A DNA stretch of 64,000 bases from Lutibacter sp. (GTDB taxonomy: Bacteria > Bacteroidota > Bacteroidia > Flavobacteriales > Flavobacteriaceae): positions 1-64,000 of the forward strand of contig NZ_JAEINV010000008.1 in assembly GCF_016342705.1 (NCBI RefSeq), in the 5' to 3' direction. Shown one piece after another: positions 1-12,013 of the stretch. How positions within the stretch are numbered: position 1 is the stretch's first letter; every line of letters begins with the position of its first letter. The notes under the pieces were generated by a model. It made no database searches. It was not told the origin of the DNA and saw only the letters and a list, made by a program, of their open reading frames with translations. A program made the position numbers and the translations under genes.

Positions 1-1
1 A

Positions 2-31
2 AAAACCTGTGAAGATATCTTCACAGGTTTT
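2..31. terminator. Palindromic terminator, probably bidirectional
   Basis: A perfect inverted repeat (arms aaaacctgtgaagat and atcttcacaggtttt) begins at the window edge and is flanked by A and T runs. It can act as an intrinsic terminator in either direction, most likely for a gene lying to the left of the window. Confidence 0.6.
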
Positions 32-80
32 CATTATTTTTTTTAATAATCGTCAACCTATTTTAGGACGACTCAAAAAT

Positions 81-128
81 AAAAAATCTTCAAAAATTTA
101 GGTGAACCTAAAGAAATGAAGATTTTTT
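81..128 (-). terminator. Intrinsic terminator of metK
   Basis: The outer stem aaaaaatcttca (81-92) pairs with tgaagatttttt (117-128). An inner stem tttagg/cctaaa (97-102 and 107-112) extends the hairpin. Read on the minus strand it lies about 20 bases after the metK stop codon and ends in a T tract, as expected for a Rho-independent terminator. Confidence 0.8.
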
Positions 129-150
129 ATTGTATTAAATAATATAATAA

Positions 151-1407
151 TTAAAGGCCAAAAGCAGTTTTTACTTTATCAACATAATCTAGTTTTTCCC
201 AAGTAAATAACTCAACGTCTATTATTTTTTCAGTTCCATCAACATTTGTAAACTTTTTTGTAACAGTTCTATTGTCACGTCCCATATGTCCGTAAGCCGC
301 TGTTTCTAAATACATTGGCTGGCGTAGTTTTAAACGTGCCTCAATAGCGGCTGGTCTCATATCAAATAGTTGTTCTACTATTTCTGCAATTTCTCCATCA
401 CCTTTATGAACCTTTGAAGTTCCGTACGTATTTACATAAATACCCATTGGTTTTACAACACCAATTGCATAAGAAACCTGAATTAAAATCTCATCAGCAA
501 TACCTGCAGCAACTAAATTTTTAGCAATATGACGTGTAGCATATGCAGCGCTTCTATCTACTTTACTTGGATCTTTACCTGAAAATGCTCCACCTCCGTG
601 AGCTCCTTTTCCACCGTACGTATCAACAATAATTTTTCTACCTGTTAAACCGGTATCTCCGTGAGGTCCACCAATTACAAATTTCCCAGTTGGGTTTACG
701 TGATACGTAATATTATCATTAAACAACGCTTTAATACTAGCTGGTAATTGTTTTAAAACTCTAGGAATTAAAATTGAAATAACATCACTTTTAATTTTGG
801 CTAGCATGGCTTCGTCTGTTGGTCCAAAGTCATCATGTTGTGTAGAAACTACAATATCTTTAATTCTAAAAGGAACATTATCATCAGTATATTCAATAGT
901 AACCTGACTTTTAGAATCTGGACGTAAATAAGTAATTTCTTTATTTTCACGTCTTAATGCAGCTAACTCGTGTAAAATTAAATGGCTTAAGTGCAATGCT
1001 AAAGGCATATAATTTTCGGTTTCGTTGGTTGCATAACCAAACATCATTCCTTGATCACCAGCACCTTGCTCTTCTTTGGTTGCTCTATCAACACCTTGAT
1101 TAATATCTTGTGATTGTTCGTGAATTGCAGAAAAAACTCCACAAGAATTTCCATCAAACATATACTCACTTTTAGTATAACCAATTTGATTGATAACATC
1201 ACGTGCTATTTTTTGAACATCTAAGTACGTGTTAGATTTTACTTCTCCTGCTAATACAACTTGGCCTGTAGTTACCAATGTTTCACAAGCTACTTTTGAG
1301 TTTTCGTCAAAAGCTAAAAAGTTATCTACTAATGAATCCGAAATTTGATCAGCAACTTTATCTGGATGTCCTTCAGAAACTGATTCGGATGTAAATAAAT
1401 ATGACAT
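151..1407 (-). CDS. metK: S-adenosylmethionine synthetase
   Basis: Methionine adenosyltransferase makes SAM from methionine and ATP in the cytoplasm. The 418-residue protein is in the usual bacterial size range. It carries the N-terminal GHPDK ATP-binding motif (about residues 13-17), the [10 protein letters not shown] hexamer-type motif near residue 116 and the glycine-rich loop [16 protein letters not shown] near residue 271. All three hallmark regions are intact. The ATG at 1407 is the only start that keeps the conserved N-terminus. The gene is monocistronic, with its own promoter, a SAM-II-like leader RNA and a terminator. It sits divergent from the methionine biosynthesis genes and supplies the ligand sensed by the riboswitches in this window. 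Confidence 0.98.
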
Positions 1408-1444
1408 AATTATTTAATTTTAAATTGTTTGAAGAAAATTTTGT

Positions 1445-1512
1445 TGATTGCGCTGGTCGCTAAAGAGAGTAAATAATTACTGCTTTAGCATTTTTTAACG
1501 AGGTTGCAATCA
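1445..1512 (-). promoter_or_regulatory. Anti-SAM alternative fold (expression platform) of metK leader
   Basis: Two segments downstream of the riboswitch are complementary to its core. CTTTAGC (1465-1459) pairs with the conserved GCTAAAG (1489-1483), supported by AGTAA/TTACT inside. GCAATCA (1451-1445) pairs with TGATTGC (1512-1506) in the riboswitch loop. Both pairings would be incompatible with the SAM-bound pseudoknot. No U tract follows, so control by translation or by another route seems more likely than intrinsic termination. The start codon is about 40 bases further on. Confidence 0.55.
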
Positions 1513-1530
1513 GTTCAAATTTTTCCTCTT
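1479..1530 (-). ncRNA. SAM-II-like riboswitch in the metK leader
   Basis: On the minus strand the leader has the SAM-II layout. A P1 helix GAGG (1528-1525)/CCTC encloses a loop with TTTGA, ACTG and ATTGCAA. It is followed by GTTAAAAAATGCTAAAG (1499-1483) and CAGT. ACTG in the loop can pair with CAGT downstream to form the diagnostic pseudoknot. TTGCAA and GCTAAA are strongly conserved in the SAM-II family. The element starts within about ten bases of the predicted transcription start. The family assignment comes from motif recall, not a covariance search. Confidence 0.75.
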
Positions 1531-1544
1531 GAATATTTCGTTTG

Positions 1545-1552
1545 CAAAGTTA
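1545..1552 (-). promoter_or_regulatory. metK promoter -7 box
   Basis: TAACTTTG on the minus strand fits the Bacteroidota -7 consensus TAnnTTTG. A TTG lies 22 bases further upstream. Transcription from here would start just before the SAM-II-like element. Confidence 0.6.
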
Positions 1553-1658
1553 TGAAAATTTAAAAATTAATTACCAATTAACTGTTAAATTATTTTTTGA
1601 TGATTTATTTGTAATGATTTTGAACTTTTTAAGACTATAATGTATAAAACTTAAACTT

Positions 1659-2084
1659 ATGATGAAAAAAATAGCCGTATTAGCACTTTTTGCTTTAATA
1701 TTTAGTAATTGTTCTGGAAACGATGAAATGGTAACTATTGTGGAGCAAATGGAAATAGAAGACGATAATACAATGAATGGAAGTACTTTTGTAATGGGAG
1801 ATTTTGTAAATGGAGCGCATCCAACTTCTGGAAAAGCATCTGTTAATTCTGATAAAACAGTACTAACTTTTACAAATTTTAAAACAGATAACGGGCCAAA
1901 ATTATTAGTGTATTTATCTACGGATGTAAATTCAACAGAATTTGTAAACTTGGGAGATTTAAAAGGGATTTCAGGAGATTTTACGTATACAATTCCTGAA
2001 AATATAGATTTAGCAAAGTATAAAATTGTGAATATTTGGTGTGTAGATTTTTCAGTTAGCTTTGGTACTTCAGAATTAAAATAA
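1659..2084 (+). CDS. DM13-domain lipoprotein
   Basis: A 141-residue predicted lipoprotein. It has a hydrophobic signal peptide ending in a lipobox with Cys at residue 18 (SNCSG), an acidic linker, and a C-terminal domain of about 100 residues. That domain has the DM13 pattern: SGKASV, a TFTNFKT strand, GPKLLVYLS, a LGDLKG turn, and a conserved tryptophan-cysteine pair in VNIWCVDF. DM13 domains are found in secreted and membrane proteins and have been proposed to act in redox or electron-transfer reactions. The specific role here is unknown. The gene is flanked by metK (divergent) and the met leader region, with no evidence that it belongs to either unit. Confidence 0.8.
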   Translation: MMKKIAVLALFALIFSNCSGNDEMVTIVEQMEIEDDNTMNGSTFVMGDFVNGAHPTSGKASVNSDKTVLTFTNFKTDNGPKLLVYLSTDVNSTEFVNLGDLKGISGDFTYTIPENIDLAKYKIVNIWCVDFSVSFGTSELK

Positions 2085-2095
2085 TTATTTTTTTG

Positions 2096-2125
2096 TTGTA
2101 TATTAAAAAAATGTGTTTACATTTG
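2096..2125 (+). promoter_or_regulatory. Promoter of the met leader/metY unit
   Basis: TTG at 2096-2098 and TACATTTG at 2118-2125 are separated by 19 bases, an excellent match to the Bacteroidota promoter. The predicted transcript starts near 2131, about 15 bases before the first leader reading frame. Confidence 0.7.
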
Positions 2126-2145
2126 TCGCATCAAAATAAAGAAAA

Positions 2146-2214
2146 ATGAAAATTATGTTTAACAAAATGCGTTATATGATGTGTAAAAATTACACAGAGG
2201 ATGCTATTGTTTAA
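2146..2214 (+). CDS. Methionine-rich leader peptide 1 (22 residues)
   Basis: A tiny reading frame begins about 15 bases after the predicted transcription start and ends with TAA at 2212. Of its 21 residues after the start, four are Met (positions 4, 8, 11 and 12, including an adjacent Met-Met pair) and position 13 is Cys. The frame ends 24 bases before an intrinsic terminator. Its 3' part contains CAGAGG (2195-2200), complementary to the terminator's first arm. The downstream gene makes the precursor of methionine. Together these point to a ribosome-stalling leader peptide for attenuation rather than a functional protein. Translation has not been shown. Confidence 0.7.
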   Translation: MKIMFNKMRYMMCKNYTEDAIV

Positions 2215-2247
2215 AATGTAATAATAAATAACAAATAGAAACCTCTG
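2180..2247 (+). promoter_or_regulatory. Attenuator 1: protector and antiterminator pairings
   Basis: Region 1 TGTGTAA (2180-2186) pairs with region 2 TTACACA (2190-2196), the protector hairpin inside the reading frame. Region 2 CAGAGG (2195-2200) alternatively pairs with region 3 CCTCTG (2242-2247), the first arm of terminator 1. A ribosome stalled at the Met-Met codons (2176-2181) covers region 1 but leaves CAGAGG free, which would favour antitermination. A ribosome at the stop codon would cover part of region 2 and allow termination. Confidence 0.65.
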
Positions 2248-2267
2248 ATAACTCAGAGGTTTTTTTA
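2239..2267 (+). terminator. Attenuator 1 intrinsic terminator
   Basis: A ten-base-pair stem AAACCTCTGA (2239-2248)/TCAGAGGTTT (2253-2262) with a four-base loop is followed by a T run. It lies between the two leader peptides, so it acts before metY and cannot serve the upstream DM13 gene alone. Confidence 0.8.
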
Positions 2268-2285
2268 TATCAAAAAAGTAATAAA

Positions 2286-2378
2286 ATGAATTTAAATTTT
2301 CAAAAAAATATGTGTATGCCAACAACAATGTTTATGCAAATAATGCGTAGCACAATGAAATGGTATTACCTAAAATAA
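2286..2378 (+). CDS. Methionine-rich leader peptide 2 (30 residues)
   Basis: A second tiny frame starts 24 bases after terminator 1. Six of its 29 residues after the start are Met (positions 9, 11, 15, 17, 20 and 24), and position 10 is Cys. Such density of Met codons is far above background. The frame ends at TAA 2376, 26 bases before the second terminator. It contains GGTATTACC (2362-2370), perfectly complementary to a segment of that terminator. It has no resemblance to a functional domain and is best read as a second methionine-sensing leader peptide. Confidence 0.72.
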   Translation: MNLNFQKNMCMPTTMFMQIMRSTMKWYYLK

Positions 2379-2424
2379 ATGGAAAAATAAAATCTATATA
2401 GATAAAAGTCCCTTTGGTAATACC
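2341..2424 (+). promoter_or_regulatory. Attenuator 2: protector and antiterminator pairings
   Basis: GGTATTACC (2362-2370) pairs perfectly over nine bases with GGTAATACC (2416-2424). After one bulged base, AAA (2372-2374) pairs with TTT (2413-2415). This would open the top of terminator 2. A weaker protector pairing is TAATGC (2341-2346) with GTATTA (2363-2368), including one G-U pair. Stalling at the Met codons up to 2345 leaves region 2 free, while a ribosome at the stop codon masks it. Confidence 0.62.
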
Positions 2425-2447
2425 TAAAACCAAAGGGACTTTTTTAT
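2404..2447 (+). terminator. Attenuator 2 intrinsic terminator
   Basis: A 15-base-pair stem (2404-2418 with 2429-2443, core GTCCCTTTGGT/ACCAAAGGGAC) is followed by a T tract, 39 bases before the metY start codon. Its position just before a coding start makes sense only as a conditional terminator. Confidence 0.85.
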
Positions 2448-2485
2448 TTAAATAAACATAGAATTAAAATATTAAAACATAAAAA

Positions 2486-3760
2486 ATGAGTACTCAAAAA
2501 ATTTCAACACAAGCGTTACACGCAGGACACGATACAACTAAAACAGGAGGAACAAGAGCGGTTCCAATTTATCAAACATCTTCGTATGTTTTTAATGATA
2601 CAGAACATGCAGCCAATTTATTTTCATTAAAAGAATTAGGATTTATTTATACACGATTAAACAATCCAACAAACGATATTTTACAACAACGTTTAGCGGC
2701 AATTGAAGGTGGAGTTGGAGCAGTGGTTTTTGCTTCGGGAACTTCAGCGATATCTACAGGTTTATTAACCTTATTAAAAGCTGGAGATCATATTGTCGCT
2801 TCCAGTAGTTTGTATGGCGGAACTTTTACATTATTAAATGTTACGTTACCAAGATTAGGAATTACTACAACTTTTGTAGATGCTTCAAATCCAGAAAATT
2901 TTAAAGAAGCGGTTCAAGAAAATACAAGAGCCTTTTTTGTGGAATCTTTAGGGAATCCAAAATTAGATGTGTTAGATTTAGAAGCAATTGCTGAACAATC
3001 TAAAGCTGCTGGAGTTCCGTTTATTGTAGATAATACAGTTGCAAGTCCAGCGTTGTTAAACCCAATTAAACATGGAGCAAATTTGGTAATTCATTCTTTA
3101 ACAAAATATATTGGCGGACAAGGAAACTCCTTAGGAGGCGCAATTATTGATGCAGGAACTTTTGATTGGACTAATGGGAAATTTCCAGAATTTACAGAAT
3201 CTTCAGCCGGCTATCACGGATTAGTTTATAGCGAAGCTTTAGGAGCGGCAGCATTTACCTTTAAATTAATTTTAGAAGGATTGCGTGATTTTGGTGGTGC
3301 TTTAAGTCCGTTTAATGCATTTCAAATTATTCAAGGATTAGAAACTTTGCCAGTTCGTATAAAACAACACAGCGCAAATGCGCTGGAATTGGCAAAATGG
3401 TTAGAAAGTAGAGACGAAGTTGCTTGGGTAAATTATCCTGGTTTAGAAAGTAGTAAATACCATACATTGGCTAAAAAATATTTACCAAAAGGACAGAGTG
3501 GATTGGTTACTTTTGGTGTAAAAGGCGGTTTTGAAGCAGCTAAAAAAGTAACGGATGCAACGCAACTATTTTCATTATTAGCCAATATTGGTGACACAAA
3601 ATCATTAATAATTCACCCGGCAAGTACAACGCATCAACAATTAACTGTTGAACAACAAGCAGGAGCTGGAGTAACTCAAGATTTAATTAGGTTATCTGTT
3701 GGATTGGAAGCTATTGAAGATTTAAAGCAAGATTTAGCAGCAGCCTTTAAAAAGATTTAG
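2486..3760 (+). CDS. metY: O-acetylhomoserine sulfhydrylase (MetY type)
   Basis: A PLP enzyme of the Cys/Met metabolism family. It is expected to condense O-acetylhomoserine with sulfide to give homocysteine and acetate. The 424-residue length and the motif SLTKYIGGQGNSLGG (PLP lysine K207) are those of the long MetY subgroup rather than cystathionine synthases. The insertion around residues 225-260 is also typical of MetY. The gene follows two Met-rich leader peptides and attenuators, so it is probably induced by methionine shortage. It precedes the homoserine acetyltransferase fusion gene that makes its substrate, though that gene has its own riboswitch. Activity as a cysteine synthase cannot be excluded. 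Confidence 0.93.
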   Translation: MSTQKISTQALHAGHDTTKTGGTRAVPIYQTSSYVFNDTEHAANLFSLKELGFIYTRLNNPTNDILQQRLAAIEGGVGAVVFASGTSAISTGLLTLLKAGDHIVASSSLYGGTFTLLNVTLPRLGITTTFVDASNPENFKEAVQENTRAFFVESLGNPKLDVLDLEAIAEQSKAAGVPFIVDNTVASPALLNPIKHGANLVIHSLTKYIGGQGNSLGGAIIDAGTFDWTNGKFPEFTESSAGYHGLVYSEALGAAAFTFKLILEGLRDFGGALSPFNAFQIIQGLETLPVRIKQHSANALELAKWLESRDEVAWVNYPGLESSKYHTLAKKYLPKGQSGLVTFGVKGGFEAAKKVTDATQLFSLLANIGDTKSLIIHPASTTHQQLTVEQQAGAGVTQDLIRLSVGLEAIEDLKQDLAAAFKKI

Positions 3761-3836
3761 TTTTTACTGAAATGTTTTGTATGAGAAAAAATTAATGCGT
3801 TAATTTGTCGCTTAGTTCATAAACTTATTGACTATT

Positions 3837-3933
3837 GTTATCAAGAAAGGCAGAGGGAATAGACCCATTGAAGCCTTAGCAACCCTTTATTTTTAAAGAA
3901 GGTGCTAAATTCTACCCAATATGGATAGATAAC
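3837..3933 (+). ncRNA. SAM-I (S-box) riboswitch, copy 1
   Basis: The element has the S-box signature: the P1 arms GTTATC (3837-3842) and GATAAC (3928-3933), then AAGAAAGGCAGAGGGA, TGAAGCCTTAGCAACC and AAGGTGCTAAATTCTACC. A candidate promoter (TTG, 20 bases, TTAATTTG near 3800) lies upstream. It precedes the fusion gene for homoserine synthesis and acetylation, which SAM should repress. A short hairpin aattact/agtaatt (about 3941-3957) follows but lacks a clear U tract, so the expression platform is not obvious. Confidence 0.92.
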
Positions 3934-4037
3934 TCAAAAGAATTACTTCTAGTAATTGCTGTATTTTCTCATAACATTATTTTTTAAGTAACACAAAGTC
4001 ATTTTTTATGATTTTAAATCAATTATAATATAATTTA

Positions 4038-7000
4038 ATGAGTCAATTGAAACATATTAAAATCACCAATTTTATTCCTGAAAAGGGAACTGTAGGTCAG
4101 GATATAAATCTTTCGTATCAATTATTTGGTCAAGATTTATATACTGCACCAGTAGTTTTGGTAAATCACGCATTAACTGGTAATAGCGATGTTGCTGGAG
4201 AAAATGGCTGGTGGAGCGATTTGGTTGGTGAAAATAAAGTAATTGACACCAATAAATACACCATTTTATCTTTCAATATTCCAGGGAATGGTTTTGACGG
4301 TTTTGTAATAGAAAATTATAAAGATTTTGTAACACGTGATATTGCAAACATCTTTTTAATTGGTTTGCAAGAATTAAAATTGAAGGAACTTTTTGCCCTT
4401 ATTGGAGGTTCATTAGGCGGTGGAATTGCTTGGGAAATGGCTGTATTAAATCCAGTAATAACAAAAAATTTAATAACCATTGCAACCGATTGGAAATCTA
4501 CCGATTGGTTAATTGCAAATTGCCAAATTCAGGAACAGTTTTTATCAAATTCTTGTAACCCAGTGCACGATGCGCGTATGCACGCAATGTTGTGTTACAG
4601 AACACCAGAATCATTTAAAGAACGTTTTCAGCGATCAAAAAATGAAGAGTTAGAGATTTTTAATGTAGAAAGTTGGTTGTTGCATCACGGTAAAAAATTA
4701 CAAGAACGTTTTCAGCTTTCAGCCTATAAATTAATGAATCAATTATTAAGAACAATTGATGTAACTAAGGGAAGAGAAGCAACAATTTTAGATTCAATAA
4801 AAGCAAGTATTCATATAATTGGAGTAGATTCTGATTTGTTTTTTACTGCGGAAGAAAATAGAGAAACACACAAACATTTAGCATTAACAAACCCAAAAGT
4901 TACCTATAACGAAATAAATTCGGTACACGGGCACGATGCTTTTTTAATGGAATATCAACAATTAGGTAAAATTATAGAGCCAATATTTAATCAAAGTTCT
5001 AAAAAAAATAAAATGAAAGTAGTAAAATTTGGAGGGAAATCCTTAGCAAACGGAATTGGAATAGATAGTACATTACAAATTATTGCTAATAAAATTAAAA
5101 ATGGAGAGAAAATTACTGTGGTTGTTTCAGCAAGAGGAAATACTACAGATTCTTTAGAGTCTATTTTAGAAAAAGCAAAAAATAATTTGCCATATGCTGA
5201 TGAGTTTGACAAACTAAAAAACTATCAATTAGAAATGGATAATTCAGTGGATTTAGCTGCTGAATTTAAGTTGTTAGATGAAATTTTTAGAGGTGTAAAT
5301 TTACTAGGAGATTACACCCCAAAGGTAAAAGATCAGGTGTTGGCGCAAGGTGAAATTTTATCAGCAAAAACCATCACACATTTGTTGAATAAACTACATG
5401 TGAAAGCCAATTTTGTAGATTCTAGAACTTTAATAAAAACAAATAATCAGTTTGGAAAAGCATTGCCTTTTGAAAGTGTTTCAGAAGAAAATGTAATTGA
5501 ACATTACAGAAAGAATAATGGCGATGTAACTCAAATAATTACTGGTTTTATTGCTTCAAATTTAAATGGAGAAACAACTACTTTGGGTAGAAATGGAAGT
5601 AATTATACAGCTTCATTAATTGCCAATTTTTTAAATGCTGAAGAATTTCAAAATTATACACACGTAAGTGGAATTTATACTGCAAATCCAGACTTGGTTG
5701 AAAATTCAAAAAAGATAGAAAAACTTTCGTATCAGGAAGCCAATGAAATGGCCAATTTTGGTGCAAATATTTTACATGCAAAAACTATTATTCCTTTAAT
5801 TGAAAAAAATATTCCTTTAAGAATTTTAAACACCTTTGATCCTGAAAACCCTGGTACTTTAATAGGTTCAGAATCTGAACAAGGTGGAATTAAATCCTTG
5901 TCAGTTCAAGAGGATGTTGCCTTGGTAAATTTAATTGGTAGAGGTTTGTTGGGTAAAGTGGGTGTTGATGGAAGGATTTTTAGTGCTTTAGGAAGAGAAA
6001 ATATCAGTATTAGTATTATTTCTCAAGGTTCATCGGAACGTGGAATTGGTTTTGTTGTAGACGCTAAAAATGGCTACAAAGCAAAAACGGTTTTAGAAAA
6101 CGAGTTTAGTAGTGAGTTTCAAAGTAAAGATGTAAGTCAGATTTATGTGACTGAAAAAGTTTCGGTAATTTCAATCATCGGTCAAAGTTTGTACTCTTTT
6201 AATCAGCCATACAGCGCTTTAATTAAAAACCATATCACGCCAATTTTAATTAACAATACGGTTACTGGAGAAAATGTGTGTTTGGTGGTAAAAAAATCGG
6301 ATTTAAACAAAGCGGTAAATGTAATTCACGGTGAAATTTTTGGTGTTTCTAAAAACATTAATATTGCCATTTTTGGAAAAGGATTGGTTGGAGGAACGCT
6401 GATTAATCAAATTTTAAAAAGTAAAGAAAACATCATCAATAGAAAAAATATCAACTTAAATATTTTTGCAGTTGCCAATTCTTCAAAAGTATTGTTGAAT
6501 AAAAATGGCGTTACTGAAAATTGGGCTACTGATTTAGAAAAAAGTGCAGTTGATAATGATGTTCAAAATATTATTGATTTCGCTGAGAAAAATCATTTAG
6601 AAAACTTAATTGCTATTGATAATACGGCAAATAGCGCATTTGTAGAAAATTATATAAATCTGGTTGAAAATGGTTTCGATTTAATTTCTTCAAATAAAAT
6701 AGCTAACACATTAAGCTATTCTTTTTATAAAGAATTACGCGCCAAATTAAGTAATTATAAAAAATCCTATTTATACGAAACCAATGTTGGTGCAGGTTTG
6801 CCGTTAATTGATACTATTAAATTATTGCATGATTCTGGTGAAAATATTACAAGAATTAGAGGTGTTTTTTCTGGTTCATTAAGTTATTTATTTAACAATT
6901 TCTCAGTTCAAAACAGGCCATTTAGTGAAGTTTTGGGTGAAGCTATTAAAAACGGATATACAGAACCAGATCCAAGAGAAGATTTATGCGGAAATGATGT

Positions 7001-7427
7001 TGGACGTAAATTATTAATTTTAGCGCGTGAGTTAGATTTACAGAATGAATTTAATGATGTGGTTATTGAAAATTTAATTCCGGAAAATTTACGTAAAGGT
7101 TCTGCAAAAGAATTTTTAGGGAAGTTAGACGAAATGAATGCGCATTACCAAACAATAAAAGAAGAACAGCAAGAAAACCATGTATTAAGATATATTGGTG
7201 ATTTATCGGGTAATTTACAAGAAGATAAAGGAGTTTTAGAAGTAAAATTAATTTCAGTTCCTGCAAATAGCGCCTTGGGACAAATACAAGGAGCCGATGC
7301 AATTTTTGAAGTATTTACAGAATCTTACGGCGAAAAACCAATTGTAATTCAGGGAGCAGGAGCAGGAGCAGCGGTTACAGCGCGTGGCGTTTTTGGAGAT
7401 ATTTTAAGGTTGGCTGAAAAAAATTAA
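4038..7427 (+). CDS. Trifunctional fusion: homoserine O-acetyltransferase / aspartokinase / homoserine dehydrogenase
   Basis: One 1129-residue frame joins three activities. Residues 1 to about 322 are an alpha/beta-hydrolase MetX domain with nucleophile Ser125 in GGSLGG, Asp266 in DSDLFF and His299 in GHDAFL. From Met326 (nucleotide 5013) a ThrA-like aspartokinase begins with VKFGGKSL. Regulatory ACT repeats follow at about 600-750. Homoserine dehydrogenase starts near residue 775 with the NAD-binding IAIFGKGLVGG and runs to the end. The protein would therefore cover the first and third steps from aspartate, plus acetylation of homoserine, leaving only semialdehyde dehydrogenase outside. It lies under a SAM-I riboswitch and probably shares a transcript with the next gene, 39 bases downstream. 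No frameshift or stop interrupts the joints. Confidence 0.92.
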   Translation: MSQLKHIKITNFIPEKGTVGQDINLSYQLFGQDLYTAPVVLVNHALTGNSDVAGENGWWSDLVGENKVIDTNKYTILSFNIPGNGFDGFVIENYKDFVTRDIANIFLIGLQELKLKELFALIGGSLGGGIAWEMAVLNPVITKNLITIATDWKSTDWLIANCQIQEQFLSNSCNPVHDARMHAMLCYRTPESFKERFQRSKNEELEIFNVESWLLHHGKKLQERFQLSAYKLMNQLLRTIDVTKGREATILDSIKASIHIIGVDSDLFFTAEENRETHKHLALTNPKVTYNEINSVHGHDAFLMEYQQLGKIIEPIFNQSSKKNKMKVVKFGGKSLANGIGIDSTLQIIANKIKNGEKITVVVSARGNTTDSLESILEKAKNNLPYADEFDKLKNYQLEMDNSVDLAAEFKLLDEIFRGVNLLGDYTPKVKDQVLAQGEILSAKTITHLLNKLHVKANFVDSRTLIKTNNQFGKALPFESVSEENVIEHYRKNNGDVTQIITGFIASNLNGETTTLGRNGSNYTASLIANFLNAEEFQNYTHVSGIYTANPDLVENSKKIEKLSYQEANEMANFGANILHAKTIIPLIEKNIPLRILNTFDPENPGTLIGSESEQGGIKSLSVQEDVALVNLIGRGLLGKVGVDGRIFSALGRENISISIISQGSSERGIGFVVDAKNGYKAKTVLENEFSSEFQSKDVSQIYVTEKVSVISIIGQSLYSFNQPYSALIKNHITPILINNTVTGENVCLVVKKSDLNKAVNVIHGEIFGVSKNINIAIFGKGLVGGTLINQILKSKENIINRKNINLNIFAVANSSKVLLNKNGVTENWATDLEKSAVDNDVQNIIDFAEKNHLENLIAIDNTANSAFVENYINLVENGFDLISSNKIANTLSYSFYKELRAKLSNYKKSYLYETNVGAGLPLIDTIKLLHDSGENITRIRGVFSGSLSYLFNNFSVQNRPFSEVLGEAIKNGYTEPDPREDLCGNDVGRKLLILARELDLQNEFNDVVIENLIPENLRKGSAKEFLGKLDEMNAHYQTIKEEQQENHVLRYIGDLSGNLQEDKGVLEVKLISVPANSALGQIQGADAIFEVFTESYGEKPIVIQGAGAGAAVTARGVFGDILRLAEKN

Positions 7428-7466
7428 ATTCAATACATTTTACAAATAAGCGAAATACTAAAAATA

Positions 7467-8636
7467 ATGAACGATAAACATTTTGAAACGGAAGCAATTA
7501 GATCACAATTAGAACGATCACAATTTCAAGAACATACAACGCCAATGTACATTACATCTAGTTTTGTTTTTGATGATGCAGAAGATATGAGAGCTTCTTT
7601 TTCAGAAGAAATAGATAGAAATATTTATTCTCGTTTTAGCAATCCAAATACTACAGAGTTTGTAGAAAAAGTAATTAAAATGGAAGGCGCAGAAGATGGT
7701 TATGCTTTTGCAACAGGAATGGCAGCCATTTATTCAACCTTTGCAGCTTTGTTAAGTAGTGGAGATCACATTGTATCAGCGCGCTCTGTTTTTGGTTCAA
7801 CGCATACATTGTTTACAAAATATTTTCCAAAATGGGGAATTGAAACTTCTTATTTTGATATTAATAAACCAGAGGAAATTGAACAATTTATTCAGCCAAA
7901 TTCAAAAATTTTATATGCGGAATCACCTACAAATCCAGGTGTTGATATTATTGATTTGGAGTTGTTGGGTAAAATTGCCAAAAAGCACAATTTATTATTA
8001 ATAATAGATAATTGTTTTGCAACACCATATATTCAGCAACCCATAAAATTTGGAGCAGATGTAGTGGTGCATTCGGCTACTAAATTAATGGACGGGCAAG
8101 GAAGAGTTTTAGGTGGAGTTGTAGTTGGAAGTTCAGATTTAGTTCGTGAAATTTATTTATTTTCAAGAAATACAGGTCCAGCAATGTCGCCATTTAATGC
8201 TTGGATTTTGAGTAAAAGTTTGGAAACTTTGGCGGTTAGAGTGGATAAACACTGCGAAAATGCGTTAAAAATTGCTGAATTTTTAGAAAATCATACAAAA
8301 GTAACTACTGTAAAATATCCATTTTTAAAATCGCATCCTCAATATGAAATTGCCAAAAAGCAAATGAAATTAGGAGGAAATATTATTGCAATAGATATTA
8401 AAGGAGGAATTGAAGCTGGGAGAAAATTTTTGAATGCTATAAAAATGTGCTCATTATCTGCAAATTTGGGAGATACCAGAACAATAGTTACGCATCCGGC
8501 ATCTACAACGCACAGTAAATTAACAGCTGAAGAACAATTATCTGCAGGTATTTTTCCTGGCTTAGTCCGTGTTTCTGTTGGGTTAGAGCATGTGAATGAT
8601 ATAATTCAAGACTTAGATCAAGCATTAAATAGTTAA
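7467..8636 (+). CDS. metZ: Homocysteine-forming PLP sulfhydrylase (MetZ type)
   Basis: A second Cys/Met family PLP enzyme of 389 residues, with PLP lysine K206 in SATKLMDGQGR. Length and motif match O-succinylhomoserine sulfhydrylase (MetZ) more closely than cystathionine gamma-synthase, although sequence alone does not fix the acyl group or sulfur donor. Its neighbour encodes an O-acetyl (not succinyl) transferase, so O-acetylhomoserine plus sulfide is the likely substrate pair. It follows the fusion gene by 39 bases and should share its SAM-I control. Having MetY and MetZ together suggests redundancy or division between sulfide levels. A short inverted repeat aagaat/attctt (8654-8671) follows the stop. 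Confidence 0.85.
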   Translation: MNDKHFETEAIRSQLERSQFQEHTTPMYITSSFVFDDAEDMRASFSEEIDRNIYSRFSNPNTTEFVEKVIKMEGAEDGYAFATGMAAIYSTFAALLSSGDHIVSARSVFGSTHTLFTKYFPKWGIETSYFDINKPEEIEQFIQPNSKILYAESPTNPGVDIIDLELLGKIAKKHNLLLIIDNCFATPYIQQPIKFGADVVVHSATKLMDGQGRVLGGVVVGSSDLVREIYLFSRNTGPAMSPFNAWILSKSLETLAVRVDKHCENALKIAEFLENHTKVTTVKYPFLKSHPQYEIAKKQMKLGGNIIAIDIKGGIEAGRKFLNAIKMCSLSANLGDTRTIVTHPASTTHSKLTAEEQLSAGIFPGLVRVSVGLEHVNDIIQDLDQALNS

Positions 8637-8691
8637 AAAATACTATTAATTTTTAAGAATATGTTAATTCTTTAATTTTTAACAATCTAAA

Positions 8692-8712
8692 AGTCTATCA
8701 ATTTGGTAGACT
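8692..8712 (+). promoter_or_regulatory. Inverted repeat (putative operator) at the cys operon promoter
   Basis: AGTCTATCA (8692-8700) and TGGTAGACT (8704-8712) form a nine-base inverted repeat with one G-U-type mismatch around att. It covers the -33 TTG of the promoter that follows, a position suited to a repressor. The regulator is not encoded nearby. Rrf2-family proteins often control sulfur genes in bacteria, but the assignment is only a guess. Confidence 0.5.
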
Positions 8713-8734
8713 AATAAAAAAAACCGTATGTTTG
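8703..8734 (+). promoter_or_regulatory. Promoter of the sulfate assimilation operon
   Basis: TTG at 8703-8705 and TATGTTTG at 8727-8734 fit the Bacteroidota consensus with 21-base spacing, 30 bases before the DUF2061 start. Confidence 0.6.
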
Positions 8735-8763
8735 CACAGTCAAAATATTTATAATTTATAATA

Positions 8764-9033
8764 ATGATTTTAGATCAAATTTTAACCTCAAATGAGCAAG
8801 AAACTGAGAAGAGTTTCGAAAAAGTTAAAAGCTCAGAAAACGCTGCGCGTAGTATTGTAAAAGCTATAAGTTGGCGCATGGTTGGTACTATTGATACAAT
8901 TGTAATATCATTCTTTATTACAGGTGAAATTAAAATGGCATTATCAATAGGTATGGTAGAAGTTATCACAAAAATGGTATTATACTTTTTCCATGAAAGA
9001 ATTTGGAATCTTGTAAAATGGGGAAAAAAATGA
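8764..9033 (+). CDS. DUF2061 membrane protein
   Basis: An 89-residue protein with the DUF2061 signature: an N-terminal polar stretch, then RSIVKAISWRMVGTIDT, a membrane segment (about residues 43-60), GMVEVITKMVLYFFHERIW and a basic end. It has two short hydrophobic segments and is probably an inner-membrane protein. It is the first gene of the sulfate-assimilation operon, and its TGA overlaps the cysH ATG (ATGA), so the two are translationally coupled. Biochemical function is not established for the family. Its place suggests a role in sulfate or sulfite handling, perhaps with transport, since no recognisable sulfate transporter is in the window. Confidence 0.85.
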   Translation: MILDQILTSNEQETEKSFEKVKSSENAARSIVKAISWRMVGTIDTIVISFFITGEIKMALSIGMVEVITKMVLYFFHERIWNLVKWGKK

Positions 9034-9647
9034 AAAATTTAGATATAGCAAAAATCAATAAAGATTTAAAAGATAAGTCGCCAGCTGAAATAATTGTATG
9101 GGCTTTAAGTATTACAAAAAACGCTTTAGTAACTACTAATTTCAGACCTTATGAAGTTGCAATTTTGCACGCAATTACACAGGTAGATCCAAATTTAAAA
9201 GTTATATGGTGCGATACGGGTTATAACACGCCACAAACCTATAAACATGCAAATGAATTAATTGATACATTAAAATTAAATGTTCATTTATATGTTCCTC
9301 AGCAAACGGCTGCGCACAGAGATGCTACTATTGGAATGCCTCAAATAGAAGATCCTTTACATAAAGTTTTTACAGAGCAAGTAAAGTTAGAACCTTTTAA
9401 TAGAGCAATGGCGGAGCATAAACCAGAAGTTTGGTTTACTAATTTAAGAAGTGGACAAACAGCTTTTAGAAATAGCATTGATGTTGTTTCGGTAAGTAAA
9501 GATGGTATTTTAAAGGTAAGTCCTTTTTATCATTGGACTGATGCACAATTAGATGTGTATTTAAAAGAGCACAGTTTACCAAACGAGTTTAAATATTTCG
9601 ACCCAACAAAAGTATTAGAAAACAGAGAATGCGGATTGCATTCATAA
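9030..9647 (+). CDS. cysH: Phosphoadenylyl-sulfate (or adenylyl-sulfate) reductase
   Basis: A 205-residue reductase of the PAPS/APS family, which makes sulfite from activated sulfate using thioredoxin. The start at 9030 overlaps the DUF2061 stop; the longer frame from 9003 only reads into that gene. The C-terminal catalytic motif RECGLHS (Cys201) is present. The only other Cys is in IWCDTG, so the CC and CxxC pairs that bind a 4Fe-4S cluster in APS reductases are missing. That pattern normally means PAPS specificity, yet no APS kinase is in this operon. Thioredoxin, the likely electron donor, is encoded at 20.6 kb. Confidence 0.92.
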   Translation: MKNLDIAKINKDLKDKSPAEIIVWALSITKNALVTTNFRPYEVAILHAITQVDPNLKVIWCDTGYNTPQTYKHANELIDTLKLNVHLYVPQQTAAHRDATIGMPQIEDPLHKVFTEQVKLEPFNRAMAEHKPEVWFTNLRSGQTAFRNSIDVVSVSKDGILKVSPFYHWTDAQLDVYLKEHSLPNEFKYFDPTKVLENRECGLHS

Positions 9648-9657
9648 AATAAAGATA

Positions 9658-10557
9658 ATGACAGAGAAGTTACATATTAACGCACTTGAAAACGAAGCAA
9701 TTTATATTTTTAGAGAAGTTGCAGCGCAGTTTGAAAAACCAGTATTGTTATTTTCTGGAGGAAAAGATTCAATTACCTTGGTAAGATTGGCACAAAAAGC
9801 ATTCTTTCCAGCAAAAATTCCTTTTCCTTTAATGCATATAGATACAGGACATAATTTTCCTGAAACTATTGAGTTTAGAGACAGATTGGTTGAAGAATTA
9901 GGTGTTGAATTAATTGTTAGAAACGTTCAAGATTCAATAGACCAAGGTAAAGTAAAAGAAGAATCTGGAAGATATTCAAGTAGAAATATGTTGCAAACTA
10001 CTACTTTGTTAGATGCTATTGAAGAATTTAAATTTGATGCTTGTATTGGTGGAGCGCGAAGAGATGAAGAGAAAGCAAGAGCAAAAGAACGTATTTTTTC
10101 TGTTCGTGATGATTTTGGTCAATGGGATGAAAAAAATCAACGCCCGGAATTGTTCGATATGTTAAATGGTCAAATAGAATTAGGTCAAAATGTACGTGTT
10201 TTCCCAATTTCAAACTGGACCGAGTTAGATGTTTGGACCTATATTGAACGTGAAAACCTAGAAATTCCTTCAATTTATTTTGCACATAAACGTGAAACTT
10301 TTTTACGAGATGGGTTAATTTGGACTGCATCAGAACATGTGTATAGGGATGAAGATGAGGAGGTTGAAGAGCGTTGGGTGCGTTTTAGAACGGTTGGAGA
10401 TATGAGTTGTACGGCGGCCGTAGATTCTTATGCAACTACAATTAGCCAAGTAGTTGCCGAAATTAGAGATTCTAGCATTTCTGAAAGAGGAGCAAGAATT
10501 GATGATAAACGCTCAGAAGCGGCCATGGAAAAACGTAAACAACAAGGATATTTCTAA
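9658..10557 (+). CDS. cysD: Sulfate adenylyltransferase subunit 2
   Basis: The catalytic small subunit of ATP sulfurylase forms adenylyl sulfate from ATP and sulfate, driven by GTP hydrolysis in CysN. The 299-residue protein has the PP-loop motif LLFSGGKDSITLVRL (about residues 30-44), the downstream MHIDTGHNFPETIEFRD and the basic IGGARRDEEKARAKER loop, all typical of CysD. It starts 10 bases after cysH and precedes cysN. Confidence 0.97.
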   Translation: MTEKLHINALENEAIYIFREVAAQFEKPVLLFSGGKDSITLVRLAQKAFFPAKIPFPLMHIDTGHNFPETIEFRDRLVEELGVELIVRNVQDSIDQGKVKEESGRYSSRNMLQTTTLLDAIEEFKFDACIGGARRDEEKARAKERIFSVRDDFGQWDEKNQRPELFDMLNGQIELGQNVRVFPISNWTELDVWTYIERENLEIPSIYFAHKRETFLRDGLIWTASEHVYRDEDEEVEERWVRFRTVGDMSCTAAVDSYATTISQVVAEIRDSSISERGARIDDKRSEAAMEKRKQQGYF

Positions 10558-10670
10558 AATTTTAGTAATAAAATTTTGCCTTTAGCTATTGGTTTTTAGC
10601 CCTTAGCACATTATAAAATATAAAATTAAGCCAATAGCCCAAAGCGAATGGCAAAAAGCTAAACAAAAGA
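10558..10670. repeat. Intergenic imperfect inverted repeat between cysD and cysN
   Basis: The only sizeable gap in the cys operon contains ttgcctttagctattggt and, inverted, gccaatagcccaaagcgaatggcaa, plus short internal repeats of ttagc. It could form a weak long hairpin in the transcript and may tune cysN expression or mRNA stability. It may equally be an inserted intergenic repeat. Confidence 0.4.
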
Positions 10671-11918
10671 ATGGAAGTTTTAAAAATAGCAACAGCAGGA
10701 AGCGTAGATGATGGGAAAAGTACCTTAATTGGAAGATTATTGTATGATACAAAATCATTAACATCAGATAAATTAGAAGCAATTGAACGTAGTAGTAAAC
10801 AAAAAGGATACGATTATTTAGATTTTTCTTTAGCTACAGATGGATTAGTTGCAGAGCGTGAACAAGGAATTACTATTGATGTTGCCCATATTTATTTTTC
10901 AACAGCAACAAAAAGTTATATAATAGCAGATACTCCAGGCCACGTAGAATATACAAGAAACATGGTAACTGGTGCTTCAACTTCACAAGCTGCAATTATA
11001 TTAATTGATGCGCGTCACGGTGTAATAGAGCAAACATATCGTCACTTTTTCATTAATAATTTGTTGAGAATTAAAGATGTAATTGTTGCCATAAATAAAA
11101 TGGATTTGGTTGATTTTTCTGAAGATAGATACAATGAAATTAAAGCCGATTTTCAAAAATTAGTTGATAAAAGTGATTATGAAGATCAAAACATAACTTT
11201 TATTCCTGTTAGTGCTTTAAAAGGCGATAATGTTGTGACAAAATCAAACGCAATGCAATGGTTTAAAGGGCAAACTTTATTAGAGCATTTAGAAAAATTA
11301 GATACTATAGATATTTATAACAGAGGAAGAGTTCGTTTTCCTGTTCAGTATGTAATTAGACCGAAAACTGAAGAATATCACGATTTTAGAGGATATGCTG
11401 GTAAAGTTTATGGTGGTGAAATTAAAGTTGGAGATGAGGTTATTGTGTTACCTTCTGAAACGAAGAGTAGAGTAAAGGAAATTTATTTTTACGATAAAAG
11501 GTTTGAAACGGCAGCAAGAAGATCTTCTTGTACAATAACATTAGAAGATAATGTAAATGTTAGTAGAGGAGATATGATTGTAAAAGTGGATGAATTGCCA
11601 AAAGTTCAAAAGCAATTTACGGCTACAATTTCTTGGATGGATGTTAAAAATTTAACTGCTGGTTCAAAATATGTGTTGCAACATGGTGTTAATAAAGTTT
11701 TAGCAAAAGTAAGCACCATAAATCATAAAATTGAAACAGATTTTTCTGGAATTAAATCGGATATTACAAGTTTAGGAATGAACGATATTGCATCTGTTTC
11801 ATTTCAATTAAATAAACCAATATTTTTCGATTCATTTAAAGAACATAGAACAAATGGAGCGTTTATTTTAATAGATCCACAAACTAATAACACAGCGGGC
11901 GCAGGATTTATAGAATAA
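10671..11918 (+). CDS. cysN: Sulfate adenylyltransferase subunit 1 (GTPase)
   Basis: An EF-Tu-like GTPase that couples GTP hydrolysis to sulfate activation by CysD. The 415-residue protein shows P-loop GSVDDGKSTLIGRLL (about residues 10-24), switch II DTPGHVEYTRNM and the guanine motif NKMD, followed by two beta-barrel domains. It ends without the C-terminal APS kinase (CysC) domain seen in CysNC fusions, which matters because no separate cysC is present here. Confidence 0.97.
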   Translation: MEVLKIATAGSVDDGKSTLIGRLLYDTKSLTSDKLEAIERSSKQKGYDYLDFSLATDGLVAEREQGITIDVAHIYFSTATKSYIIADTPGHVEYTRNMVTGASTSQAAIILIDARHGVIEQTYRHFFINNLLRIKDVIVAINKMDLVDFSEDRYNEIKADFQKLVDKSDYEDQNITFIPVSALKGDNVVTKSNAMQWFKGQTLLEHLEKLDTIDIYNRGRVRFPVQYVIRPKTEEYHDFRGYAGKVYGGEIKVGDEVIVLPSETKSRVKEIYFYDKRFETAARRSSCTITLEDNVNVSRGDMIVKVDELPKVQKQFTATISWMDVKNLTAGSKYVLQHGVNKVLAKVSTINHKIETDFSGIKSDITSLGMNDIASVSFQLNKPIFFDSFKEHRTNGAFILIDPQTNNTAGAGFIE

Positions 11919-12013
11919 GTAATGTTCTAAAAACCAAAAACATACATATTATTTTACTTCAATCAAAAGATTGAGGCAGGAGATTTTTATACTAACTAAA
12001 AAAATCAAAAACA

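Follow-up and report, generated by a model that had tools for sequence, protein, structure and literature searches.

The metY locus and its leader region

The window is the whole 64,000-nt stretch that we analysed, from a contig of Lutibacter sp. (NZ_JAEINV010000008.1). Its metY gene encodes O-acetylhomoserine sulfhydrylase, and the nearest named metY, at 93%, is that of Lutibacter sp. HS1-25. Three methionine-pathway RNA sensors lie side by side within 2.5 kb: a SAM-II riboswitch, two putative leader-peptide attenuators in tandem and a SAM-I riboswitch. The features are as follows.

1475-1534, minus strand: SAM-II riboswitch before metK (Rfam match, RF01726)
2118..2125, plus strand: -7 box TACATTTG of the single predicted promoter (perfect consensus match), with the transcription start predicted near 2130
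2146..2214, plus strand: leader peptide 1, 22 aa, MKIMFNKMRYMMCKNYTEDAIV, four internal Met and one Cys (open reading frame, conserved in relatives)
2176..2184, plus strand: predicted control codons ATG ATG TGT of leader 1 (stall folds, stall scan, MM pair in relatives)
2180..2186, plus strand: segment 1 of attenuator 1, TGTGTAA, pairing with TTACAC at 2190-2195 (folding)
2195..2200, plus strand: segment 2 of attenuator 1 (antiterminator arm), CAGAGG, pairing with CCTCTG at 2242-2247
2239..2266, plus strand: terminator 1 and its T run, with segment 3 CCTCTG at 2242-2247 and segment 4 CAGAGG at 2254-2259 (folding, terminator finder)
2286..2378, plus strand: leader peptide 2, 30 aa, MNLNFQKNMCMPTTMFMQIMRSTMKWYYLK, six internal Met and one Cys (open reading frame, conserved in relatives)
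2362..2370, plus strand: segment 2 of attenuator 2 (antiterminator arm), GGTATTACC, pairing with GGTAATACC at 2416-2424
2408..2446, plus strand: terminator 2, stem 2408-2439, with segment 3 GGTAATACC at 2416-2424, and its T run (folding, terminator finder)
2486..3760, plus strand: metY, the putatively controlled gene (TIGR01326, 619 bits against a cut-off of 495)
3835-3935, plus strand: SAM-I riboswitch before the metX fusion gene (Rfam match, RF00162)
4038-7427, plus strand: 1129-aa frame, MetX joined to aspartate kinase-homoserine dehydrogenase (family search)

In the 1129-aa frame, the MetX-like domain scored 177 bits, under the family cut-off of 500, and the bifunctional aspartate kinase/homoserine dehydrogenase part scored 734 bits, over its cut-off. 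Two classes of SAM riboswitch flank what would be a tRNA-type sensor of metY. Between 2096 and 2486, neither RF00162 nor RF01726 (SAM-I and SAM-II) gave a match. A search of window positions 1-12000 at E values up to 5 found no T-box, and no Rfam family at or over its cut-off at 2096-2486. Rows under the cut-off at the leader (MIR5743, BSnc120, Phe_leader and STnc370) were discarded as chance.

A promoter had been proposed ahead of both leaders, and the box at 2118-2125 bears this out with a perfect match to the -7 consensus TAnnTTTG (PMC9723704, main text). The same box stood upstream of leader 1 in 41 of the 47 leader-bearing loci described below, mostly 26-29 nt before the ATG. It was seen in none of 40 loci within 45 nt before leader 2 and in none of 47 within 70 nt before metY. 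With boxes before leader 1 and none before leader 2 or metY, one polymerase most likely meets both units, which supports the proposed layout of two trp/his-type attenuators in series. The response of such a pair would be steeper, as the product of two readthrough probabilities.

The first-pass annotation had counted two Met-rich frames before metY, of 22 and 30 aa with four and six internal Met, and we obtained the same counts. The in-frame ATG count was matched by 0.6% of 20,000 dinucleotide shuffles for leader 1 and by 0.015% of 20,000 for leader 2. The Met count of leader 1 is by itself only moderately unusual, and it is the comparison with relatives that makes it secure. Among related leaders, Met and Cys made up 17.0% and 8.8% of 1002 non-start residues in leader 1 and 19.7% and 10.8% of 1180 in leader 2 (raw percentages, not set against a proteome background). 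An MM pair occurred in 45 of 47 leader-1 peptides; the next residue was Cys in 33 of these 45 and Trp in 7. Both are short leader frames enriched in codons for the amino acid of the pathway to which metY, the gene behind them, belongs. Chance occurrence of the Met codons was rejected: the codons are conserved, and outside the leader loci the leader rule is triggered at 4 of 206, two of which (L100 and L182) duplicate leader loci.

Mixing of Met and Cys codons in one run suggests a joint sulfur amino-acid signal. The earlier claim of a signal tuned to methionine needs amending in this respect: the leaders are rich in codons of both types, and the signal is probably Met plus Cys.

Terminators, competing pairings and their conservation

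A terminator had been placed after each frame, and each was found to have a stem and a T run. The stem of terminator 1 has its core at 2242-2259 and extends to 2239-2262, with the T run reaching about 2266; in attenuator 2, segment 3 (GGTAATACC) lies at the top of the terminator stem 2408-2439. The list from a generic terminator scan lacked hairpin 2 and gave hairpin 1 on the minus strand alone; a dedicated terminator finder reported both on the plus strand. Folding z-scores against shuffles were -4.9 for attenuator 1 and -6.1 for attenuator 2. Each frame had also been said to contain a segment complementary to the following terminator. This was confirmed (CAGAGG with CCTCTG; GGTATTACC with GGTAATACC), and the segment-2 match of either window leader was equalled in 0 of 200 shuffles.

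We folded the leader RNA with a ribosome assumed to cover 13 nt from the first base of its A-site codon. For stalls at 2176, 2179 or 2182 in leader 1, and at 2310-2343 in leader 2, pairing of segments 2 and 3 (2:3) was the best predicted fold while segment 3 was the last part to have emerged. A stall at 2355 would leave segment 2 unfreed. For the window RNA, a ribosome at the stop codon gave the terminator fold, and no ribosome gave the 1:2 pairing plus the terminator. Once segment 4 was out, the terminator was preferred in the model even with a stalled ribosome (-17.5 kcal/mol against -12.8 for 2:3 alone). As the full RNA folds to the terminator, antitermination must be kinetic, not thermodynamic. 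The leaders thus have an antiterminator that excludes the terminator and would be released by a stalled ribosome, with a kinetic preference and with a weak match in 6 of 47 leader-1 units (see below).

When stall positions were scanned along the related frames, the permissive side held 251 of 258 Met/Cys codons against 329 of 744 others in leader 1; for leader 2, the counts were 325 of 360 and 667 of 820. Part of this contrast follows from the need to encode segment 2 in the 3′ half of each frame; for this reason, and because the leaders are related, no probability was assigned to it.

For comparison, 254 regions upstream of metY were collected from 80 named contigs, 28 genus loci, 28 plus 117 family loci and the window, and they became 237 distinct regions after merging of those with an identical last 170 nt. 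The gene was present in 29 of 38 genus genomes and in at least 171 of 249 family genomes; 145 family loci were read among the matches listed. Leaders with terminators occurred in 47 of the 237 regions: by rule, 38 were tandem, 8 had leader 1 only and 1 had leader 2 only, and on reading by eye L115, L197 and L198 also have leader 2. All 29 genus metY loci had at least one leader. By rule, 27 of them were tandem, counting the duplicate L100; L115 was tandem on reading, and L092 ends at a contig edge. Leaders were also found in contigs of Kordia, Flavobacterium and further genera. One case counts against the pattern: L066, a metagenome-assembled genome labelled Lutibacter, has SAM-I in place of leaders. 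The gap between terminator 2 and metY, usually about 45 nt, is about 270-305 nt in L106, L107, L109, L222 and L226, and in L106 and L109 it contains GC-rich repeated stretches.

Duplicates L100 and L182 were dropped (L100 repeats L001, the HS1-25 contig recurring in the window's genus). From 91 frame-terminator pairs, less four spurious frames, 47 leader-1 and 40 leader-2 units remained, of which 28 and 22, respectively, entered the covariation alignments. Terminators 1 and 2 were paired in 100% of cells, 21 and 14 of which had changed on both sides. For antiterminator 1, 85.2% of cells were paired and 7 had changed on both sides (slid control 33-58%); for antiterminator 2, the values were 89.2% and 8 (slid control 26-52%). 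The middle strand CCTCTG has become CCTTTG in L197 and L198 and CCGCTG in L204, L226 and L237; the terminator partner follows these changes fully and the leader strand largely. In six of the 47 leader-1 units (L091, L097, L098, L102, L111 and L249), the segment-2 match was reached by at least 24 of 200 shuffles. For the leader-1 antiterminator, two of five shuffle measures were unexceptional (39/500 and 210/500). The evidence for the antiterminators is good on these alignments and is not independent proof, because the 2:3 figures share a strand with the 3:4 terminator, two measures were unexceptional and six matches were weak.

The alignment of relatives that the first-pass annotation had proposed as a check came out in its favour: relatives combine the frames with Met codons and with both pairings, and no loss of frames with retention of hairpins was found. 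Frames, codon bias, promoter and competing pairings are thus present and conserved on the evidence of sequence and comparison.

Exchange with SAM-I and leaders before other genes

Among the 237 metY regions, 175 had SAM-I without a leader, 47 had leaders without SAM-I and 15 had neither. A pattern search for SAM-I, applied to every region, missed 21 loci that Infernal found. The two elements stood together before metY in none of the 47 leader regions, absence of SAM-I being called by Infernal in 39 of them and by pattern only in the other 8. Eleven of the 15 regions with neither element were scanned by Infernal, and L065, L236, L245 and L253 by pattern only; among the 15, L036 shows a leader-2-like remnant on a cut contig and four seem to lie directly behind metK. 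As in the window, SAM-I lies downstream of metY in 19 of 20 leader-bearing loci checked. Naville and Gautheret report other cases in which leader peptides and T-boxes or riboswitches replace each other (passages of PMC2965389), so exchange as such is already known. Matches to the Flavo-1 RNA motif were seen downstream of metY in L049, L037, L038 and L109.

A model of leader 1 (R1) gave one strong match in its own genome, at 116.7 bits; the next scored 35.3, and none of seven weaker places inspected there (L262-L268) had the Met/Cys layout. Two other leaders of this genome serve as an internal control for the metY attenuators: a His-run leader, MRFIQSHHHHFHTCTRAS, with a terminator before hisG (L312, C6 near 93391), and a Phe/Tyr-run leader, MITNNTWNSFYFYFYFSNKR, with a terminator before a pheA-type prephenate dehydratase gene (L313, C34 near 69460).

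Across the order, R1 matched in 130 of 296 genomes at E 0.01, mostly with weak terminator-like matches, so that this number is not a prevalence. We inspected 43 of these places (29 loci, L269-L297, and 14 regions, L298-L311). The genes behind them were metY (12, of which L269 and L278 had already been surveyed), TonB receptor (8), metX (8), cysE (2), cysH (2), OsmC-like (2) and others (9); the last comprised one PLP enzyme, asnA with an Asn leader, two unidentified genes and five places without a convincing leader or gene. Family searches were run on L270, L274, L276, L289, L293, L305, L277, L280, L302 and L303, with no Pfam match in L280 and L302 and with L276 and L293 under NCBIfam cut-offs; at the remaining places, genes were named from the similarity of their translated start.

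Clear Met/Cys leaders stood before metY, cysE, cysH and TonB-receptor genes and before some OsmC and metX genes. In L289, the second cysH leader contains nine Cys and two internal Met; the cysH leader in L305 is Met-rich, not Cys-rich. Most metX leaders were Met-poor or missed by the rule, with none in L304, and in L301, L304, L306 and L307 metX is merely the first frame of more than 120 aa, 0.9-1.0 kb downstream. In the Flavobacterium loci L277, L279, L282-L285, L287 and L288, TonB-dependent receptor genes lie behind Met/Cys leaders (the plug domain was tested in L277, the others being named by resemblance); these receptors are candidate importers of a sulfur compound. Before asnA in L303 (335-515, plus strand), an Asn-rich frame (7 Asn of 25, by eye) with a terminator is a possible asparagine attenuator.

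Class-wide, R1 matched in 12 of 295 genomes at E 1e-5. Three of the six genomes outside the order had Met/Cys leaders, before metY (L314), a sulfite/nitrite reductase gene (L315) and an OsmC gene (L319). The other three looked like chance on inspection, as did several weaker matches.

We lean slightly towards a sulfur-amino-acid attenuator regulon across Bacteroidia. Its mixed Met/Cys leaders would act as an OR-type sensor of both sulfur amino-acid tRNAs, doubled before metY for a steeper response and replacing SAM-I there; within one pathway, metX and (through SAM-II) metK would then respond to SAM, and metY to tRNA charging. We go no further than this because just one of the two cysH leaders is dominated by Cys and those before metX are weak. 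A Met:Cys ratio tuned to the gene is a suggestion from the Cys-dominated cysH leader in L289, which L305 does not share.

Proposed mechanism and comparison with known attenuators

From these data, we consider the leader at 2130-2486 to be a series of two ribosome-mediated transcription attenuators through which the charging of sulfur amino-acid tRNAs gates metY, with a probability of roughly 0.86. The signal would be charging of elongator Met-tRNA, with Cys-tRNA probably contributing. When Met and Cys are plentiful, a ribosome at the leader stop codon would cover segment 2, the 3:4 terminator would form and the polymerase would leave. When charged tRNA is short, the ribosome would halt on the Met/Cys run and cover segment 1, leaving segment 2 free to pair as soon as segment 3 emerges, and 2:3 would pre-empt the terminator. 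A polymerase past attenuator 1 would face the same test at leader 2. If a leader were untranslated, 1:2 and 3:4 would form and transcription would end. Translation of the frames, stalling, the response of termination, its sharpening by multiplication and the contribution of Cys to the signal are what we infer from this architecture.

The same mechanism might respond to charging of Met-tRNA alone, the Cys codons being incidental. Each window leader has a single Cys, MM is nearly constant in leader 1 (45/47) yet followed by Cys in only 33 of 45 and by Trp in 7, and the L305 leader, one of two before cysH, is Met-rich. We nevertheless regard a Met-only signal as unlikely, given the Cys content of the leaders (8.8% and 10.8% of non-start residues, with no proteome background) and the nine Cys against two internal Met in the second cysH leader of L289.

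Met starvation affects initiation as well as elongation. A limit on initiation would lead to termination, and this counts against the two-attenuator reading. A shortage of Met might then be sensed through fMet-tRNA, and hence through leader translation, with no stalling at internal codons. Such an initiation sensor would leave the internal Met/Cys runs before the permissive boundary unexplained, and the terminator fold predicted with no ribosome gives it the wrong sign for a biosynthetic gene; we hold it to be very improbable. A role of the peptides themselves, as metal- or redox-binding proteins rich in Met/Cys or as arrest peptides beside ordinary terminators, would fit frames that are conserved and rich in sulfur residues. 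It seems a shade more improbable still: apart from the Met/Cys run, the peptide sequence varies freely; its conserved 3′ half corresponds to the pairing segment, which changes in step with the terminator; and both frames lie downstream of a single promoter and upstream of metY, no second promoter having been seen. The least likely reading is a riboswitch or T-box with chance frames. SAM-I does hold the same place in most relatives; against this, no Rfam family reached its cut-off at 2096-2486, and the frames and their codons are conserved.

Riboswitches or repressors are the controls usually described for methionine genes. The metY gene of this flavobacterium appears to be under two back-to-back RNA switches that respond to the speed at which ribosomes move through Met (and Cys) codons, and most relatives use a riboswitch for that job. 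A ribosome-mediated Met sensor stands apart in that starvation for Met limits initiation too, and separation of the two limits becomes testable here. Exchange of leaders and SAM-I at one gene, with three sensors within 2.5 kb, offers a natural experiment on the replacement of RNA sensors. In a literature search that excluded Lopatovskaya 2010 and the F. psychrophilum supplement, we found no published attenuator reading Met, or Met plus Cys, no same-signal attenuator pair in series and no attenuator exchanged with SAM-I.

SAM-I before metY (RF00162), in the same place in 175 of 237 regions, differs from the leaders in that it binds SAM directly. Closer in codon content are the Cys leader peptides of mycobacterial cys operons, reportedly the subject of Canestrari 2020. 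Like the metY leaders, they have runs of Cys codons before sulfur genes; unlike them, they belong to another phylum, have no Met, and come with no conserved terminator in the passages of PMC1262725 that describe them. The leader of Salmonella mgtCBR also has two short frames, each affecting transcription of the genes behind, but according to the relevant passages of PMC3641672 its units read different signals (ATP and proline), whereas the metY units appear to read the same one. Attenuation had been noted as known mainly from proteobacteria, and it is not only proteobacterial: in F. psychrophilum, of the same family as the window, there are strong clues for leader-peptide attenuation, with conserved structured 5′ elements at pheA, hisG and other genes (PMC9723704, main text, where neither "methionine" nor "metY" occurs; a supplementary table lay outside this search). 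The metY leaders lend further weight to the view that attenuation is common in Bacteroidota.

The classic mechanism is leader-peptide attenuation of trp, his, phe, ilv and thr, and the multi-amino-acid leaders of ilv and thr are precedents for a mixed signal. As in these systems, the metY leaders combine a control-codon frame for the pathway product, the 1:2, 2:3 and 3:4 pairings and an intrinsic terminator, the arrangement of the attenuation model (PMC1183508, in part). They differ in using Met and Cys codons and in placing two complete units in series before one gene. Judged from their sequence, the metY leaders work like the trp and his attenuators, with every defining feature tested present.
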